From contig JAHDHJ010000004.1 in the NCBI GenBank assembly GCA_020631375.1, forward strand, positions 1 through 45,562: DNA of 45,562 nucleotides, in the 5' to 3' direction. This DNA is from Saprospiraceae bacterium. GTDB taxonomy: Bacteria > Bacteroidota > Bacteroidia > Chitinophagales > Saprospiraceae. Positions 24,518 through 43,263 of this stretch are shown here, piece by piece. Numbering within the stretch: position 1 is the stretch's first letter; each line of letters starts with the position of its first letter. The translations under genes were made by a program, and so were the position numbers. Under the pieces are notes generated by a model. That model searched no databases. It worked only from the letters and a program-made list of their open reading frames with translations, and was not told the origin of the DNA.

Positions 24518-26164
24518 ATGTTAAGAACTAATTTACTATTTACTTTTTTATTATTTGCACTCAGTGTGCAATTCGCATCTGCCCAAGAGAGATACTTGCA
24601 AGAGGTATTCACTGATGTAGCAGTAGAAAGCGATGTAACCTATGGTGTAAATGCTACTGCATTATACTTTACCGTAGTGGGTGAGGCGATTCCCGAAGCC
24701 TTGTTAATGGATGTTTATACACCAGTAGGAGATACGGAACCAGAACGTCCGCTTGCATTGGTGTTCCATACAGGAAATTTTTTACCGCCGGTTATTAACC
24801 AACAAATAGCTGGTTCTAAAACGGACAACAGCGTTGTGGAAATATGCACTCGTTTGGCTAAGATGGGATATACTGCTGCTTCTGTAACATACCGTACAGG
24901 ATGGAATCCTGCTGCAACAGACCAACCTACAAGAGCTTTGGGCTTGATTCAGGCAGCTTACAGAGGTATCCAAGACGGAAGAACTGCTGTCCGTTTCTTC
25001 AGGGACAACTACAATAACGGAGGAAATACTTATGCAATTGATCCAAATAGAGTAACAGCCATTGGTGCTGGAACTGGCGGCTACCTTGTATTAGGTATGG
25101 CTACATTGGATAACTATAATGAAATCGTTACGACTACACATGGACCTGCTAAATTTTTGTTGGACGTTAATCCTCCTGATGGTACTCCTGAAACACCAAT
25201 GGTAGTGCCTACATATCATGGAGATATAGAAGGTAAGGCATTGGCAATAGCACCGGATGCTGCATTCGGATTCCCTGCGGGAGATACATTATGTTATCCT
25301 AACTTTGTGGATGAAAATTCAGATGTTCAGCTAGTCATGAATATTGGCGGAGCATTGGGAGACATATCATGGTTGGATGCAAATAGTGCACCTATTATTT
25401 CTGTACAGTCCGCTTATGATATTTTTGCCCCTTATAATGATGATGTACTTATCGTTCCTACTACTGGAGATGAAATCGTAAGGGTACAAGGAAGTTTGGC
25501 TGTTGCTGAGGAACAAAATACATTAGGAAATAACCAGCCGTTTTTAGATGCATACATTCCTGTTGCTTACCTGCCTTATACTGATAAAGCTATGGAGCAT
25601 TCCACTGTAGCTGGTCATCAATATTATGAGGCGCTATATCCTGTTACAAATCCACCGAATAGTAGTGGATTAGATGAAGGAGTTGTAATTAATTGGTGGG
25701 ATCCTTCTGACATTGCTCCAGGACAAGCAGGACAAGGAATGTCTTGGGATCAATTACCTCACCCTGCTGGAGGAACATATCACCAACAAGGGTTGGTATT
25801 GAACGAAGGCATGTCTGCTGCAAAAGCAAAACTGAATATAGATACGATCATAGGTTATTTTGCTCCTAGGGCAATTGAAGTATTGAATTTACCACTTGTA
25901 CCCAATGTTAATCTTGAAGAAAATGAAGTTTCATTAACAATGACTCCTAACCCAGTAGGTTCGGAAGTTGTTTTGACTTCAAGGGTAGAAACCCCAATGA
26001 AGAGTGTTCAGATTTTTGATGTCAATGGACGCTTGGTTAGGGATTATCAAGGAGTTGATAATAATTTCTTATTCGTAAGAAGAGGGGATTTACCTTCTGG
26101 AACTTACGTAGTTATGGTCGGATTTGAAGAAGGTGACGTTTCTAAGAAAATGATCTTGAAATAG
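24518..26164 (+). CDS. T9SS-secreted alpha/beta-hydrolase-like protein lacking the nucleophile serine
   Basis: 548 residues. The signal peptide ends at ASAQ (23). A carboxylesterase-like domain follows (about 60-300): MDVYTPVGDTEPERPLALVF, an oxyanion-hole-like HTGNFLPP, TRLAKMGYTAASVTYRTGW, DGRTAVRFFRDN and DPNRVTAIGAGTGGYLVLG. In active esterases the last motif is G-x-S-x-G; here it reads G-A-G-T-G, with Gly185 at the nucleophile position. The enzyme is therefore either inactive or uses another residue. The last 75 residues (LTMTPNPVGSEVVLTS, QIFDVNGRLVRDYQG, LPSGTYVVMV, KKMILK) are a T9SS type A sorting domain, so it is exported to the surface. It sits directly behind a TonB receptor gene and is followed by a strong terminator. 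Confidence 0.8.
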   Translation: MLRTNLLFTFLLFALSVQFASAQERYLQEVFTDVAVESDVTYGVNATALYFTVVGEAIPEALLMDVYTPVGDTEPERPLALVFHTGNFLPPVINQQIAGSKTDNSVVEICTRLAKMGYTAASVTYRTGWNPAATDQPTRALGLIQAAYRGIQDGRTAVRFFRDNYNNGGNTYAIDPNRVTAIGAGTGGYLVLGMATLDNYNEIVTTTHGPAKFLLDVNPPDGTPETPMVVPTYHGDIEGKALAIAPDAAFGFPAGDTLCYPNFVDENSDVQLVMNIGGALGDISWLDANSAPIISVQSAYDIFAPYNDDVLIVPTTGDEIVRVQGSLAVAEEQNTLGNNQPFLDAYIPVAYLPYTDKAMEHSTVAGHQYYEALYPVTNPPNSSGLDEGVVINWWDPSDIAPGQAGQGMSWDQLPHPAGGTYHQQGLVLNEGMSAAKAKLNIDTIIGYFAPRAIEVLNLPLVPNVNLEENEVSLTMTPNPVGSEVVLTSRVETPMKSVQIFDVNGRLVRDYQGVDNNFLFVRRGDLPSGTYVVMVGFEEGDVSKKMILK

Positions 26165-26196
26165 TTTTGACATAAAGTATTAATACTTTAAAAATT

Positions 26197-26229
26197 AAGC
26201 GGGACTATCCAAAATGGATAGCCCCGCTT
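26197..26229 (+). terminator. Rho-independent terminator after the hydrolase-like gene
   Basis: A 14-bp stem, AAGCGGGACTATCC with GGATAGCCCCGCTT (one G:U pair), with a 5-base loop and a following TTTTTACTTT. The remaining sequence to 26417 shows nothing clear. Confidence 0.8.
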
Positions 26230-26417
26230 TTTACTTTAGGGAATCCCTGTAAATGGGATTTAGCCTTAGATTGCCTCTGGATTTATTATTGTTTGAATAT
26301 TTTTTTCAGTTGTTTTCCTTTTTTTCTTACTGAATTTCAATTCTTTTTGTGGGAATTGCTAGACTCCCAAATGATTTGTTCTTCCTTTTTTCGTAGCATT
26401 TTTCAAAGGAAACAAGT

Positions 26418-31374: not shown

Positions 31375-31790
31375 AATTTACATTTTTCACAAATTCCATT
31401 GATAATAAGGTGGGCAGATTCTTGCTGAAAACCTTGTGGCAAATTGACCATAGGAACAACCACTTCATCCAAACAAACGGTTTCGCAGCATTTTCCACAA
31501 TGGAAATGTGCATGATCGTCTTCATGGTGATGGTGTTCGCATTCTCCGGCACAAAGTGCATACCGAGCCACTTCAGTCCCATCTATCGCCTTGTGGATGA
31601 TTCCCGTTTCCTCAAAAGATTTCAGAGTACGATATAATGTTACCCGATCGGTATCTTCCATTTCTTTTTCCAATTGGCCATGCGAGATTGCTGTATCACT
31701 CTCTAAGAAATACGCCAAGACCTGAATCCGGACAGCAGTCTTTCTCAAGTCATGTTTCGCTAATATGTCAGATACCCGATTTATGTCCAT
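31371..31790 (-). CDS. Fur-family metal-dependent repressor, probably Zur-like
   Basis: 139 residues. The N-terminal winged helix reads LAKHDLRKTAVRIQVLAYFL and DRVTLYRTLKSFEETGIIHK. The dimerisation domain has CAGECEHHHHEDDHAHFHCG, CCETVCLD and the final CEKC, giving the Cys4 structural zinc site (C-x2-C twice) and a histidine-rich sensor site. Length fits Fur. The extra histidines and the downstream His-rich lipoprotein and MerC-like genes favour zinc as the sensed metal, though Fur or Nur cannot be excluded. It is the first gene of the cluster. Confidence 0.88.
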   Translation of the reverse strand: MDINRVSDILAKHDLRKTAVRIQVLAYFLESDTAISHGQLEKEMEDTDRVTLYRTLKSFEETGIIHKAIDGTEVARYALCAGECEHHHHEDDHAHFHCGKCCETVCLDEVVVPMVNLPQGFQQESAHLIINGICEKCKL

Positions 31791-31893
31791 ATGGCAAAGT
31801 TCAGTATTTTTTATTCGTCTTCCAAATTTAATGAAAATCCTAATCCCTGGAGATGTAATTGATTTTCATTCTTATGCTCAATGAATTGTATAA

Positions 31894-31970
31894 TATCTGT
31901 TGCGTAAAACGCAACAGATATTAGTATTTAGGCTCTAGTATCTAGATTTATAATGGTTTTCTACGAAATG
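31894..31970. repeat. GTTGCGT-family palindrome plus extended repeat
   Basis: A 12-bp perfect stem, TATCTGTTGCGT-AAA-ACGCAACAGATA (31894-31920), is followed by TTAGTATTTAGGCTCTAGTATCTAG and TTATAATGGTTTTCTACGAAA. The sequence matches 19413-19490 closely in the same orientation. It lies between the Fur-family gene's promoter side and the transposase remnant, whose stop codon falls inside it (31961-31963). Confidence 0.6.
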
Positions 31971-32412
31971 GTTCGTGAATGATTATGCTTTGATTTAAAA
32001 ATATGCCTCGCTGCAAAATATTTGGATACTTTTTTCAAATCCTCCGAACGTCGGCAGACAAGAGCGGAATAATAAGCCAACAAAATGCCGTGCTCTTCCG
32101 TAGCCAATTTTTGGTCTGCTACCAGATGCATCGTTGTATTATTGATGATGTCAATGCCGGCGAAACCACCTATTTCCAAACCCCATTTGCTTTTCCCTCC
32201 ACAAGCCTACCAAAAATAACCCTCTCAGGGTGTATGCTTCCCGCTTTTTGATATGTAATGCGAGTCGAACGCCGTAATCTGTTCATATTCAAAAACCATG
32301 TCTCCCCCGAATCCTGTATTGCAAACTAATTTTTTTTCAAAAAATTGCTTTGCCATTTGCCTATCTCAGGCATTTTATCCAATATTGTCATTGTGAATGT
32401 TTCTACATTCAT
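31961..32412 (-). pseudogene. Remnant of an IS4-type transposase
   Basis: Read on the minus strand from an ATG at 32412, the pieces are NVETFTMTILDKMPEIGKWQ, then after a one-base frameshift in an A/T run (about 32329-32346) CNTGFGGDMVFEYEQ, ITAFDSHYISKSGKHTP, a TGA (32225-32227), EGYFW, a TAG (32207-32209), and ACGGKSKWGLEIGGFAGIDI to a stop at 31961. The order and wording match Bacteroidota IS4-type DDE transposases as I recall them (AFDPS-YISKSGK-TPG, GYFWSGCAG, KWGLE, TAMHL-A-QT, LLAYY, DLKKVSKY). Both nonsense codons are one C-to-T change from sense. The second DDE aspartate region is altered, and the protein ends early, about 150 codons against 400 or so. Confidence 0.8.
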
Positions 32413-32705
32413 CAGGTGAAAGTCTTGTTTCGCTTCGCAAAATCAAAACTATGACTTTTACCTTTTTTATGTCTAATATAAGTGCTTCAAGGTATTTGGT
32501 TGGGTAATTCTACGAACACGAACGATTAGAGGAATTTGTGTAAATTAGTGGCGGGAAAAACTGCCACGAATCCCACGAATACTGGACTATTCATCGCTTA
32601 ATTTAATACACCCGAAAGGTAAGGAATCTATTATAAATTCATATTTGTTTAAATATCTCAAGGCACTTAATAGAAATCTTCACGAACCATTGTTACATAG
32701 ACTTT
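32413..32705. other. Intergenic region without a gene
   Basis: About 290 bases between the transposase remnant and the cyclase-family gene. The only structure I see is a short hairpin-like GTGGCGGG...CTGCCAC near 32550-32567, with repeated CACGAAT nearby. No promoter element was clear. Confidence 0.4.
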
Positions 32706-39782: not shown

Positions 39783-40817
39783 TTGAGCGAAATATTATTG
39801 AACGTGGACAACGTTGAATTAGTAGATCTATTCGGCGAAAACAATGTAAAACTGAACTTACTCCGAAAAGCATTCCCTGAAGTAAAGATAGTGGCAAGAG
39901 GAAGCCAGATAAAATTATTAGGCGAAAAAAAATATACCCAAAACCTTAAAGGCAAAATCGAAATGATGGTGAAAACCCTCAAGGAATTCGATGAACTATC
40001 CATAGAAACGGTAAAGGACTTGCTAAACGGAGCCAATCCATTTGCTACAAGACTCAGCAAGCGGACTTCGGAAAACATCATAGTATATGGAACGGGAGGC
40101 AAACAGATAAAAGCCCAAACCCGTAACCAAAAACTATTGGTCGATTCGGCAGATGAGAATGACATCGTGTTTGCAGTCGGTCCCGCAGGTACGGGTAAGA
40201 CCTATACGGCAGTGGCATTGGCAGTAAGGGCATTGAAAAATAAAGTGGTGAAAAAAATCATCATGACCCGACCAGCTGTAGAAGCGGGGGAAAATCTAGG
40301 ATTCTTACCCGGAGACTTGAAAGATAAGGTAGATCCTTATCTAAGACCTTTGTACGATGCACTGGATGATATGATTCCTAGTGACAAGCTAGAACATTTA
40401 ATAACGACTCGGGTGATCGAAGTAGCACCATTGGCATTCATGAGGGGACGGACATTGGACAACGCATTCGTCATTATGGATGAGGCACAAAACTGTACCA
40501 CTACCCAATTGAAAATGTTCCTGACCCGTCTTGGTCCATCCGCAAAATGCATTGTAACAGGTGATTTGTCACAAATAGATTTGCCCCGCCATGTAACGTC
40601 AGGACTGAAACGCTCCTTGGATATCCTAGGGAAATTGGAGGGCATAGGAGTAGCAAGATTGACTCCGGATGATGTAGTGCGTCATAGATTGGTAAAGGAA
40701 ATTATTATTGCCTATAATGAAAATGATGCTAAAATGAAAGAAGAACGTGAGGCGAACAGAATAGGCGAAAATAAAAAACCGGACTCAGCAGATGGCTTGG
40801 GAATGGTGAATAAATAA
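39783..40817 (+). CDS. phoH: PhoH-family ATPase
   Basis: 344 residues. The only start that fits is a TTG at 39783; an in-frame stop (39762-39764) rules out an earlier ATG. The N-terminal region (about 1-90) is a KH-like domain found in PhoH proteins. The ATPase core has Walker A VGPAGTGKTY (about 132-141), MTRPAVEAGENLGFLPGDL, MRGRTLDNAFVIMDEAQN as Walker B, and LGPSAKCIVTGDLSQIDLP. PhoH is often linked to RNA metabolism (YbeZ) and ribosome maturation with YbeY, which is not nearby here. A 14-bp perfect terminator follows. Confidence 0.93.
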   Translation: MSEILLNVDNVELVDLFGENNVKLNLLRKAFPEVKIVARGSQIKLLGEKKYTQNLKGKIEMMVKTLKEFDELSIETVKDLLNGANPFATRLSKRTSENIIVYGTGGKQIKAQTRNQKLLVDSADENDIVFAVGPAGTGKTYTAVALAVRALKNKVVKKIIMTRPAVEAGENLGFLPGDLKDKVDPYLRPLYDALDDMIPSDKLEHLITTRVIEVAPLAFMRGRTLDNAFVIMDEAQNCTTTQLKMFLTRLGPSAKCIVTGDLSQIDLPRHVTSGLKRSLDILGKLEGIGVARLTPDDVVRHRLVKEIIIAYNENDAKMKEEREANRIGENKKPDSADGLGMVNK

Positions 40818-40856
40818 TTTCGATTTAGGATTTAATTTTCTACGAATATTGAATTG

Positions 40857-40888
40857 TCCCGAATTTTCAAATTATTGAAAATTCGGGA
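40857..40888 (+). terminator. Rho-independent terminator of phoH
   Basis: A perfect 14-bp stem (40857-40870 with 40875-40888, core CCCGAATTTTCAA) with a 4-base loop and a TTTTT tail. Its core recalls the hairpin at 10-43. Confidence 0.85.
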
Positions 40889-40921
40889 TTTTTAAAAACC
40901 TTACATTTGTTTTCCATCCCT

Positions 40922-40969
40922 AAAATAAAAAACCCTCGCTACAATTGACACACATCATTGCAGCAAGGG
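40922..40969 (-). terminator. Orphan minus-strand terminator
   Basis: A 13-bp stem with two G:U pairs (40933-40945 with 40957-40969; CCCTCGCTACAAT/ATTGCAGCAAGGG), with an 11-base loop. On the minus strand it is followed by TTTTTTATTTT (40932-40922). No protein-coding frame on the minus strand leads into it within 840 bases, so it implies an unannotated transcript. Confidence 0.6.
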
Positions 40970-41033
40970 AACATCGTTCTGTATTGACTAAAAATAAGAA
41001 AAAACTACTACTAACAACTAAAAATATTTATTG

Positions 41034-41215
41034 AATCTTACCTAAGGAATGGCGAACAAATAAATATCCAATCTTGACTTGTTTTTTTTTGCAATTAACT
41101 GCGTTAAAAAGCCTCGTCGATGCCCTGCATCGCCTACGTTTTTTGCCTTGTTATTCACAAAAAATCCTGCGCCAATTTTTGTCCATTTATTTATACATCA
41201 TTCCTAAGCAAGATT
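41034..41215. repeat. Long imperfect inverted repeat, 182 bp
   Basis: The ends are related as reverse complements: AATCTT-ACCTA-AGGAATG-GCGAAC-AAATAAAT (41034 onward), against AATCTT-GCTT-AGGAATG-ATGTAT-AAATAAAT read back from 41215. The centre carries CGATGC-CCT-GCATCG (41118-41132), flanked by paired AAAAAGCC/CGTTTTTTGC-type arms. The whole could fold into one long stem. It has no coding frame. Confidence 0.55.
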
Positions 41216-41252
41216 GGCAATTCTTTTTGTACCCAAAAGGGAGATTCTGAAA

Positions 41253-41310
41253 AATCGCTAGATGAGTTCCTACAATAGAATAAATTATTGTCGAAACTCA
41301 TCCTGCGATT
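41253..41310. ncRNA. Multi-helix hairpin, candidate structured RNA
   Basis: Three stacked helices: AATCGC/GCGATT, GATGAGTT/AACTCATC and ACAATA/TATTGT, all perfect, with small symmetric internal loops (TA/CT, CCT/CGA) and an 8-base loop. The total is 20 base pairs. A further hairpin GGCTA-TCTTTT-TAGCC follows at 41313-41328. Strand and function are unknown; on the minus strand it would lie upstream of the inverted repeat and the orphan terminator. Confidence 0.4.
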
Positions 41311-41328
41311 GTGGCTATCTTTTTAGCC

Positions 41329-41811
41329 TTGACTAAACTACTTCAACTATACTAAAAAACTAAGAGTAGAATAACTAGGGATTTATAGTGGATCGTTAGC
41401 TACTAAAAAATTATTCTACTAAAACTATCAAAAAACATCTTTATAATAATCGTCTGATGTCTAACTTAATGCCATAAATTATGCCATTCCAGTCAGAATT
41501 AATCATTAGAGTGACGAACAACATTTTTGTTTTTAATGACCAAATTATTATCTATTCTAATATTAGAAAAATATTGCATCAAGCTGTATTGCCAACTGAT
41601 GCTTTTTTATTCTTATAAATGTTAATGTATAAGCTAGACTTATGCGAAATGCCAATATTCAGATTAGTGACAATTAAAAATAAAATATTTTTGATTTTTA
41701 TTCCTTAATACTCAAAAAATGGGATTATTCCTAGGCTGAAACTAAATCAACAACTAGCTTTATTCGATTCTTTTCTTTAATATTACCACTTGAAATGACC
41801 AAATTTCGTAC
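41329..41811. other. Remainder of the phoH-aldehyde dehydrogenase gap
   Basis: About 480 AT-rich bases with no coding frame. TAGTAGAATAAT-type sequences occur in both orientations near 41365-41425. I see no clear promoter for the dehydrogenase gene. Confidence 0.4.
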
Positions 41812-43263
41812 ATGAAGACAGATAAATATATAAAGAACTATATCGGAGGAGCATTAATTCCACCCGATTCGGGAGAATACATCGACAATATAAGCCCACC
41901 TACGGGCGAAGTCTATTCCCACATACCCGATTCTGATGAATCTGATATCCAAAAAGCAGTGGAAGCTGCTGAACGTGCATTTCCTGATTGGTCAACCTGC
42001 GGTGTGGAAAAAAGATATCGTATCCTAACCCGTATCGCAGATATTATAGAGCAAAATCTGGATGATTTCGCACATGCGGAAAGTTTGGATTCCGGTAAGC
42101 CGATTACGATGTCCAAGAGTGTGGATATTCCCCGGGCTCATGCCAATATTCGTTTTTTTGCTACCGCAATTATGCACTTCGCTTCCGAGTCGCACCACAT
42201 GGAAAAAAATGCGGTCAACTTTACTCTCCGACAACCGATTGGAGTAGTAGGCTGTATCTCTCCTTGGAATTTACCTTTATATTTATTCACTTGGAAAATT
42301 GCTCCCGCATTGGCATCTGGCAATTGCGTCATTGCGAAGCCATCAGAAGTTACGCCCATGACCGCATTCCTTTTTGCGCAAGCATGTGAAGAAGCGGGAT
42401 TGCCTCCGGGCGTTTTGAATATCGTCCATGGTTTGGGACCGAAGGCAGGCGAGGCCATTATAAAACACCCGAAAATCAAAGCCATCTCATTTACCGGAGG
42501 TACGAATACAGGCAGGGAAATCGCTCGGATAGCAGCTCCGATGTTCAAGAAATTGTCTCTGGAATTAGGAGGGAAAAACCCGAACATCATATTTGCGGAT
42601 TGTGATTTTGATAAAATGATTTTCGATACGCTCCGCTCTTCATTTTCCAATAATGGACAAATTTGTCTTTGTGGCTCTAGAATATTCGTAGAACGTCCGA
42701 TTTATGAAAAATTCAAGGAAGAATTCGTAAAACGTACCCAATTCCTAAAAGTAGGAGAACCCTTTTCTCCCGTGACGGATTTGGGAGCAATGGTCAGCCA
42801 ATCCCATATGGAAAAAGTGATGAGCTATATAGAATTGGCGAAAGTAGAAGGAGGCGAAATCCTCTGTGGTGGAAAACCGGTGGAAATGGAAGGGAGATTT
42901 GAAAAAGGCTTTTATTTGCGACCAACCATCATAGAAGGATTGGATCCTTATTGTAGGACGAACCAAGAAGAAATTTTCGGCCCGGTCGTTACCATAATGC
43001 CTTTCGATACGGAAGAAGAAGTTTTGGAATATGCGAATTCCGTGGATTATGGTTTATCTTGTACCTTATGGACAAAGGATGTGTCTCGGGCGAACCGAAT
43101 GGCAGAACAAATCCAAGCAGGGGTAGTTTGGGTAAATTGCTGGCTATTGAGAGATTTGAGAACACCCTTTGGAGGAGTGAAAAATTCAGGAGTGGGCAGA
43201 GAAGGAGGTTTGGAGGCCTTGAGGTTTTTTACAGAAGCCAAGAACGTTTGTATAAAATATTAG
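41812..43263 (+). CDS. Aldehyde dehydrogenase, ALDH8/aminomuconate-semialdehyde type
   Basis: 483 residues. The family motifs are intact: CISPWNLPLYLFTWKIAPAL with Asn153, IAKPSEVTPMTAF, ISFTGGTNTGREIAR, KLSLELGGKNPNI with general base Glu251, FSNNGQICLCGSRIFVERP with catalytic Cys285, EEIFGPVVTIMPF and NCWLLRDLRTPFGGVKNSG. The block around the cysteine (GQICLC) and the C-terminal NCWL-R-L--PFGG resemble ALDH8A1, which oxidises 2-aminomuconate semialdehyde in the kynurenine route; 2-hydroxymuconate semialdehyde is the close alternative. Three bases separate it from the nucleotidyltransferase gene, so the two are probably co-transcribed, although no shared pathway is evident. Confidence 0.85.
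   Translation: MKTDKYIKNYIGGALIPPDSGEYIDNISPPTGEVYSHIPDSDESDIQKAVEAAERAFPDWSTCGVEKRYRILTRIADIIEQNLDDFAHAESLDSGKPITMSKSVDIPRAHANIRFFATAIMHFASESHHMEKNAVNFTLRQPIGVVGCISPWNLPLYLFTWKIAPALASGNCVIAKPSEVTPMTAFLFAQACEEAGLPPGVLNIVHGLGPKAGEAIIKHPKIKAISFTGGTNTGREIARIAAPMFKKLSLELGGKNPNIIFADCDFDKMIFDTLRSSFSNNGQICLCGSRIFVERPIYEKFKEEFVKRTQFLKVGEPFSPVTDLGAMVSQSHMEKVMSYIELAKVEGGEILCGGKPVEMEGRFEKGFYLRPTIIEGLDPYCRTNQEEIFGPVVTIMPFDTEEEVLEYANSVDYGLSCTLWTKDVSRANRMAEQIQAGVVWVNCWLLRDLRTPFGGVKNSGVGREGGLEALRFFTEAKNVCIKY

Follow-up and report, generated by a model that had tools for sequence, protein, structure and literature searches.

The closest described counterparts of the features at this locus come from two other Bacteroidota. 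In Bacteroides thetaiotaomicron, 21 UTR-derived sRNA candidates and 49 high-confidence intergenic sRNAs with a terminator have been reported (PMC7366714). By description, its 3'UTR-derived and intergenic sRNAs are like our candidate RNA in coming from Bacteroidota, in lying at the end of an mRNA and in being closed by an intrinsic terminator; our candidate differs in its host and partner gene, in that one genome lacks the coding sequence itself, and in being predicted from sequence. Porphyromonas gingivalis carries IS5-related MITEs, including BrickBuilt, in 10-20 copies (PMC4596501). They share with an element found at this locus, which has 40 scored places in its genome, the phylum, a small non-coding body, terminal inverted repeats and the lack of a transposase. 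Our element differs in belonging to a family of about 157 bp with a TWA duplication and a core common to species in which the ends differ.

6S RNA, tmRNA, RNase P RNA and SRP RNA are also comparable as structured non-coding RNAs of a few hundred bases. Unlike them, the stretch of DNA analysed (45,562 nt, hereafter the window) gives no match at gathering score to any of 4227 Rfam families and, with ARAGORN, no tRNA or tmRNA, in agreement with the preliminary description, which could match the gap under study to none of the four by eye. By E-value nothing in the gap is credible or near the gathering score (lowest SNORA77, 0.071), and nothing is near it in the corresponding segments of the relatives G007 (PsrR1, 0.11) and G003 (mir-2813, 0.17). 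A known RNA family was rejected, as the best Rfam E-values belong to matches far below gathering score and ARAGORN is empty. A literature search of titles and abstract openings returned no account of the RNA module or the MITE, though a description may exist; if borne out, the locus would reveal in Saprospiraceae a conserved RNA module that has apparently escaped description.

The gap between phoH and an aldehyde dehydrogenase gene

The window belongs to genome G000, an assembly of 4.14 Mb in 328 contigs that is 88% complete, and was compared within a genus sample of nine genomes, G000 included, which leaves eight relatives. The gap (40818-41811, 994 nt) lies between what we take, from their own sequences, to be phoH (end 40817) and an aldehyde dehydrogenase gene (start 41812). 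That about 1 kb is free of protein frames, as had been claimed, is confirmed: the ORF list has no frame of at least 60 aa between 40817 and 41812, and the longest stop-to-stop run in the six frames of the gap is 71 codons. The window has nine stretches of 300 nt or more that no ATG ORF of 150 aa or more covers, and the gap is one of them. Its length by itself is not special, since one stretch is longer (31375-32705, 1331 nt without an ATG ORF of 150 aa).

At the phoH side the gap holds that gene's own hairpin terminator (40857-40893). This hairpin (TCCCGAATTTTCAA...TTGAAAATTCGGGA) recurs across the genus in blastn searches with 40818-41042, alone taking 11 of the 12 matches in G000 (one being its own reverse strand) and most of the 24 in G007. 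None of the eight relatives has phoH next to the aldehyde dehydrogenase gene: the two lie on separate contigs, except in G006, where 94 kb separates them. The arrangement in the window therefore looks derived; the divergent gene that precedes the dehydrogenase gene in several relatives is presumably hflX.

The minus-strand features of the gap are two different things, a MITE-like element and a conserved RNA-like module (Table 1). The whole gap as a single RNA gene was rejected because the MITE accounts for 41046-41204.

Table 1. Features of the gap, in minus-strand order; trx1 is the thioredoxin-like gene that precedes the module in relatives.
Feature	Position	Strand	Basis
DNA resembling the trx1 upstream region of relatives	41737-41472	-	local alignment, dinucleotide shuffles
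Upstream motif TGTCACTA	41672-41665	-	
Upstream motif CGTCACTC	41516-41509	-	
Presumed sigma54-like motif TGGCATAATTTATGG	41486-41472	-	resemblance to consensus
80 nt where relatives have trx1 coding sequence	41471-41392	-	motif-to-box distances
5' box CCACTATAAATCCCT	41391-41377	-	13 consecutive columns identical in four genomes
P1, small hairpin GGCTA/TAGCC	41328-41313	-	weakly supported
P2, long hairpin, conserved AATCGC/GCGATT base	41310-41253	-	pairing tests
Linker hairpin arm CCAATCTTGC	41217-41208	-	sequence positions
MITE-like element, GGAATG...CATTCC, TAA/TAA flanks	41046-41204 (159 bp)	.	genome copies
Linker hairpin, other arm GGTAAGATTC	41042-41033	-	sequence positions
3' box TTAGTAGTAGTTTT...TTAGTCAATACAGAACGATGTTCCC	41014-40967	-	blastn, covariance model
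Intrinsic terminator with U-tract, end of unit	40969-40927	-	fold, arm swaps

The conserved module and its pairing

Two of the structures claimed in the preliminary description stand. The strong minus-strand terminator, CCCTTGCTGCAAT.../...ATTGTAGCGAGGG followed by a T-run, is found at 40969-40927, where a 90-nt segment folds at -24.7 kcal/mol (z -3.9) and none of 200 shuffles is as stable; it is absent from the listing of a consensus terminator scan, which probably missed it because of its bulge and long loop. The hairpin at 41310-41253 (P2) is likewise present at these coordinates, the 150-nt segment around it having a z of -4.3 with none of 200 shuffles as stable, and it ranks sixth in stability among 4550 overlapping 70-nt minus-strand segments. 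Across the window, the lowest folding energy of any such segment, -32.4 kcal/mol, is found elsewhere, at 26161-26270.

Among the nine genus genomes, a blastn search with 40818-41042 matched parts of 40921-41031 in G001 (E = 1.1e-11), G003 (E = 3.0e-9) and G007 (E = 1.6e-6). The module order common to these three and G000 is a 5' box ACTATAAATCCCT, P2 with an ATCGC/GCGAT base, a linker, a 3' box (in the relatives TAGTAGTTTT...TCAA-ACA..GATGTTCCC) and the terminator. Order and strand are as in the window in G003 and G007 and also in G001, but there the module is split by an extra thioredoxin-like ORF, which lies in the linker and has a CGPC motif by eye. From the four sequences a covariance model, R1, was made for the 3' part; among the nine genomes it recovers them at E = 9e-16 to 1e-10, partly by construction. 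Its next match there, in G004, has E = 0.19, lies near a contig start and has no 5' box; G004 is 72% complete, so the absence of the module from it is not firm. Under strict filters R1 matched 3 of 298 genomes of the family sample, all within the genus, with G003 not among the matches listed. With filters off, on five stretches behind other topoisomerase genes, its best E-value apart from the three known modules was 0.34, and it found no module in the thioredoxin clusters of G005 and G006. A blastn search with 41235-41811 in 60 relatives, scoring 10 candidates per genome, returned the query itself and one 27-nt match.

The three carriers are the relatives nearest to the window by PhoH identity (88-91%, vs 74-79% for the other five); aldehyde dehydrogenase identity does not separate carriers, being 91% in the module-less G006 and 89% in G004, where the module was not found either. 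Mean column identity of the module is 62%, in an alignment that is poor in the middle. By these comparisons the module is real and conserved, with four genomes of a single genus carrying it, and in the window it is mixed with an unrelated MITE. A small conserved peptide in the 3' box was considered and rejected, since the ATG-TTC-CC frames enter the variable terminator stem and, by eye, disagree among the four genomes.

The alignment of P2 comprises four sequences and 16 pairs, or 64 cells, of which 87.5% are paired (3 of 500 shuffles as high), with a covariation score of 0.292 (6 of 500). Pairs changed on both sides (4 of 16; 49 of 500 shuffles) and further pair types (8; 129 of 500) are not significant, so that the alignment of related genomes for covarying pairs, which had been proposed as a check, goes beyond shuffles for pairing and covariation score and does not for these two counts. 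When the partner is slid by 1-3 columns, pairing of P2 falls to 27-50%. When arms are exchanged between species, all 12 terminator combinations and 11 of the 12 for P2 pair more weakly, the exception being the G001 5' arm with the G000 3' arm (-21.7, vs -21.5 for its own); without the AATCGC clamp 11 of 12 P2 swaps are again weaker, the exception being a G003 arm with G001 (-7.6 vs -7.3). P2 thus largely keeps its pairing. The P1 hairpin is weak: counterpart arms are present in G001 and G003, the predicted fold of G003 prefers another hairpin, and the counterpart in G007 overlaps P2. Four sequences cannot prove a structure. Of the paired regions whose conservation the preliminary description had made decisive, the terminator and the 41310-41253 hairpin recur in all three carriers, the hairpin with most of its pairing kept.

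The trx1 neighbourhood and the interpretation of the unit

In G001, G003 and G007 the module lies directly behind the stop codon of trx1, the 5' box starting about 5, 49 and 24 nt after it, respectively. The assignment as Thioredoxin_7, DsbH-like comes from Pfam, run on G003 trx1 and G007 trx2, and the trx1 product is probably secreted. In all three carriers the module is near a DNA topoisomerase/gyrase subunit A gene (Pfam, on that of G003), with trx2 downstream. Tandem thioredoxin-like genes behind this topoisomerase/gyrase gene are a recurrent arrangement, with GTCAC and TGGCATG motifs preceding several of them, and thioredoxin-like clusters are also found at the topoisomerase gene of G005 and G006. 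In G000 a 5.1-kb stretch where the topoisomerase gene ends showed no thioredoxin-like ORF, the contig of that gene has no thioredoxin match, and the assembly has no close trx1 relative (the best two reach 32% and 33% identity); at 88% completeness, trx1 may still lie elsewhere in the genome.

The DNA ahead of the module in the window resembles what precedes trx1 in relatives. Local alignment of 41737-41473 with the G007 trx1 upstream region scores 121 (dinucleotide shuffles 86.2, sd 8.6; 1 of 300 as good) and that of 41724-41453 with the G001 region 117 (79.1, sd 8.5; 0 of 300), while the G003 region is not significant (96 vs 84.0, sd 8.9; 33 of 300). Against the trx2 or trx3 upstream regions of these three relatives 215, 227 and 243 of 300 shuffles are as good, and against module-less upstream regions 133 (G006 trx1), 10 (G006 trx2) and 6 (G005 trx1) of 300. 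As G005 trx1 and G006 trx2 score about as well as or above G003, the resemblance partly reaches promoters of module-less genes. Motifs common to the window and the trx1 upstream regions are TGTCAC, GTCACT and TGGCAT-ATTT-TG. From TGGCAT to the 5' box the distance is 625 nt in G001, 634 nt in G003 and 654 nt in G007 vs 97 nt in the window, so that the missing stretch is about as long as the coding sequence. The earlier view of a terminator that no gene needs does not hold, as it stands behind trx1 in relatives and the trx1 upstream region is recognisable in the window. The proposed minus-strand structured non-coding transcript fares better: terminator, hairpin and two boxes recur in the same order and strand in the three carriers, while the repeat that had been included in it is a MITE.

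We think it rather probable that about 41737-40927 carries, on the minus strand, a trx1 unit left orphaned, of which the promoter and the structured 3' RNA remain, with the linker interrupted by a MITE. In the three carriers the unit is complete: an upstream region with GTCAC motifs and TGGCATGATTTCTG, which like TGGCATAATTTATGG in the window we take to be sigma54-like, then trx1, then 5' box, P2, linker, 3' box and terminator. In the genome of the window the unit sits between phoH and the aldehyde dehydrogenase gene, not beside the topoisomerase gene, and trx1 would have been lost from this very place; with its coding sequence missing, the promoter motif comes to lie about 80 nt ahead of the RNA. 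A 159-bp MITE has inserted into the linker hairpin. The RNA would be transcribed from the trx1 promoter, whose class is presumed, and P2 and the terminator stem may stabilise or protect it. Most predicted folds leave the two conserved boxes unpaired, and these could be its active surfaces for a partner RNA or protein; it may be released as an sRNA and have a target.

The module stands behind a coding sequence, with which the terminator would share one transcript, in the three carriers and not in the window. The candidate RNA may be a free sRNA or a conserved 3' untranslated region, either of which fits the sequence data; most likely the module works as a 3'UTR-type regulatory RNA. That it survives where both trx1 and trx2 are missing hints at a function independent of the two; recent loss would explain the survival equally, and the RNA may be in decay in G000. 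We entertain tentatively the further idea that a thioredoxin mRNA tail became a free-standing RNA gene through loss of its coding sequence, an sRNA gene caught at birth and tolerating a MITE; were that true, the RNA would act in trans and the protein would not be needed. The window is a natural experiment on whether the tail of an mRNA can still function when the coding sequence is absent.

Persistence of the module in the window without a neighbouring thioredoxin gene, and its invariant 5' box, could also mean that it is an sRNA gene in its own right, driven from a promoter just ahead of the 5' box, independent of trx1 and only incidentally next to trx genes. We regard this as unlikely: a box that starts about 5-49 nt behind the trx1 stop in relatives leaves little room for a promoter, the minus strand of 40500-42000 nowhere fits the strict Bacteroidota pattern TTG-N17-23-TAnnTTTG, the three matches to a relaxed pattern (41655, 41595 and 41017) are none of them just ahead of the box, and sigma70-type matches are at chance (8 vs 6.2 expected). 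The terminator of G003 and G007 lies about 110-145 nt ahead of trx2, with start codons chosen by eye, and would suit a riboswitch or attenuator, a leader acting in cis on the thioredoxin gene that follows, with the terminator as its switch; however, the window has no trx2 downstream, its next gene being the convergent phoH, and the GTCAC motif between terminator and trx2 in relatives is read as a separate control region, which makes a leader very unlikely. An orphaned unit that retains its RNA has, finally, to be set against a functionless residue, whose conserved look would reflect recent common descent while the window's copy decays. A single locus without trx1, in a new location and with a MITE insertion, is what such a residue would look like, but the window's copy has kept its boxes, P2 and terminator intact, and in both P2 and the terminator each arm finds its best partner in its own opposite arm, in spite of the module's low mean column identity; we judge a residue improbable.

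The MITE-like element

When 41030-41235 was compared with its own genome, 40 places were scored among 122 candidates, full and partial and including that of the window; the best 25 of the 40 are 88-100% identical and the remainder partial or weaker. All 25 copies examined, the window's included, keep both ends, with 35-40 of 40 end letters matching the reference, and are 156-161 bp long. Their flanking 3-mers are direct in 21 (20 TWA, one TCT) and inverted in 4. A scan of the genome for the end motif with at most 2 mismatches gave 83 matches, and a reversed control pattern none. The element thus has the dispersed copies, terminal inverted repeats and target site duplication of a MITE, with no transposase inside and no ORF of 60 aa in its 159 bp. 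For a parent transposon one transposase family, PF13359 (DDE_Tnp_4), was searched, with 0 matches in the genome, and no parent was found. At least five contigs end inside a copy, and no copy was found in plasmids. The insertion target minus one TAA reads AATCTTGC-TTAG-GTAAGATT, a small hairpin, so the MITE inserted into the loop of the linker hairpin. The modules of G001, G003 and G007 are without it.

The long foldable repeat at 41215-41034, which the preliminary description had made part of its RNA, is indeed very stable: a 206-nt segment folds at -59.3 kcal/mol, a z of -5.6 that none of 200 shuffles reaches in stability. Such a fold could suggest that the repeat is itself an RNA gene, a reading already contradicted by its dispersal over those 40 scored places, by its terminal inverted repeats and 3-bp duplications and by its absence from the module of three relatives, and hence extremely improbable; stability stands, membership in the RNA does not. 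The gap is an example of how the most foldable piece of an intergenic region can be a mobile repeat and not an RNA gene.

The hairpin core GGCGATGCAGGGCATCGGCGAGG belongs to a MITE-like family of about 157 bp common across MAGs, with compensatory variants and differing end repeats. The MAGs sharing it are titled Saprospiraceae or Bacteroidetes, with one Chloroflexi title among the matches listed, and most contigs carrying it, again among the matches listed, belong to one MAG. MITEs usually have conserved ends and variable middles. From the copies compared, this family appears to reverse the usual pattern, the core being conserved where the ends differ. A core scan gave at least 100 stretches; the analysis of their ends covered the 67 distinct cores that have enough flanking sequence on either side. 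A first end scan, which weighted inverted repeats over duplications, found TWA duplications in 24 of the 67; a second, which required duplications, found TWA duplications and matching ends in 40, of which 33 are 155-158 bp long. As a control for the second scan, 2000 positions were taken at random from these loci, and 35 of them pass; the 17 of these that are 155-158 long are perhaps real unlisted copies, and a few of the 40 cores, with ends unlike the others, may be chance. A second end type, TAAGGAATGATGAATTAATAAAT, occurs in G000 on contigs C7, C11, C45, C49, C163, C245 and others and is a probable related MITE subfamily of the same genome.
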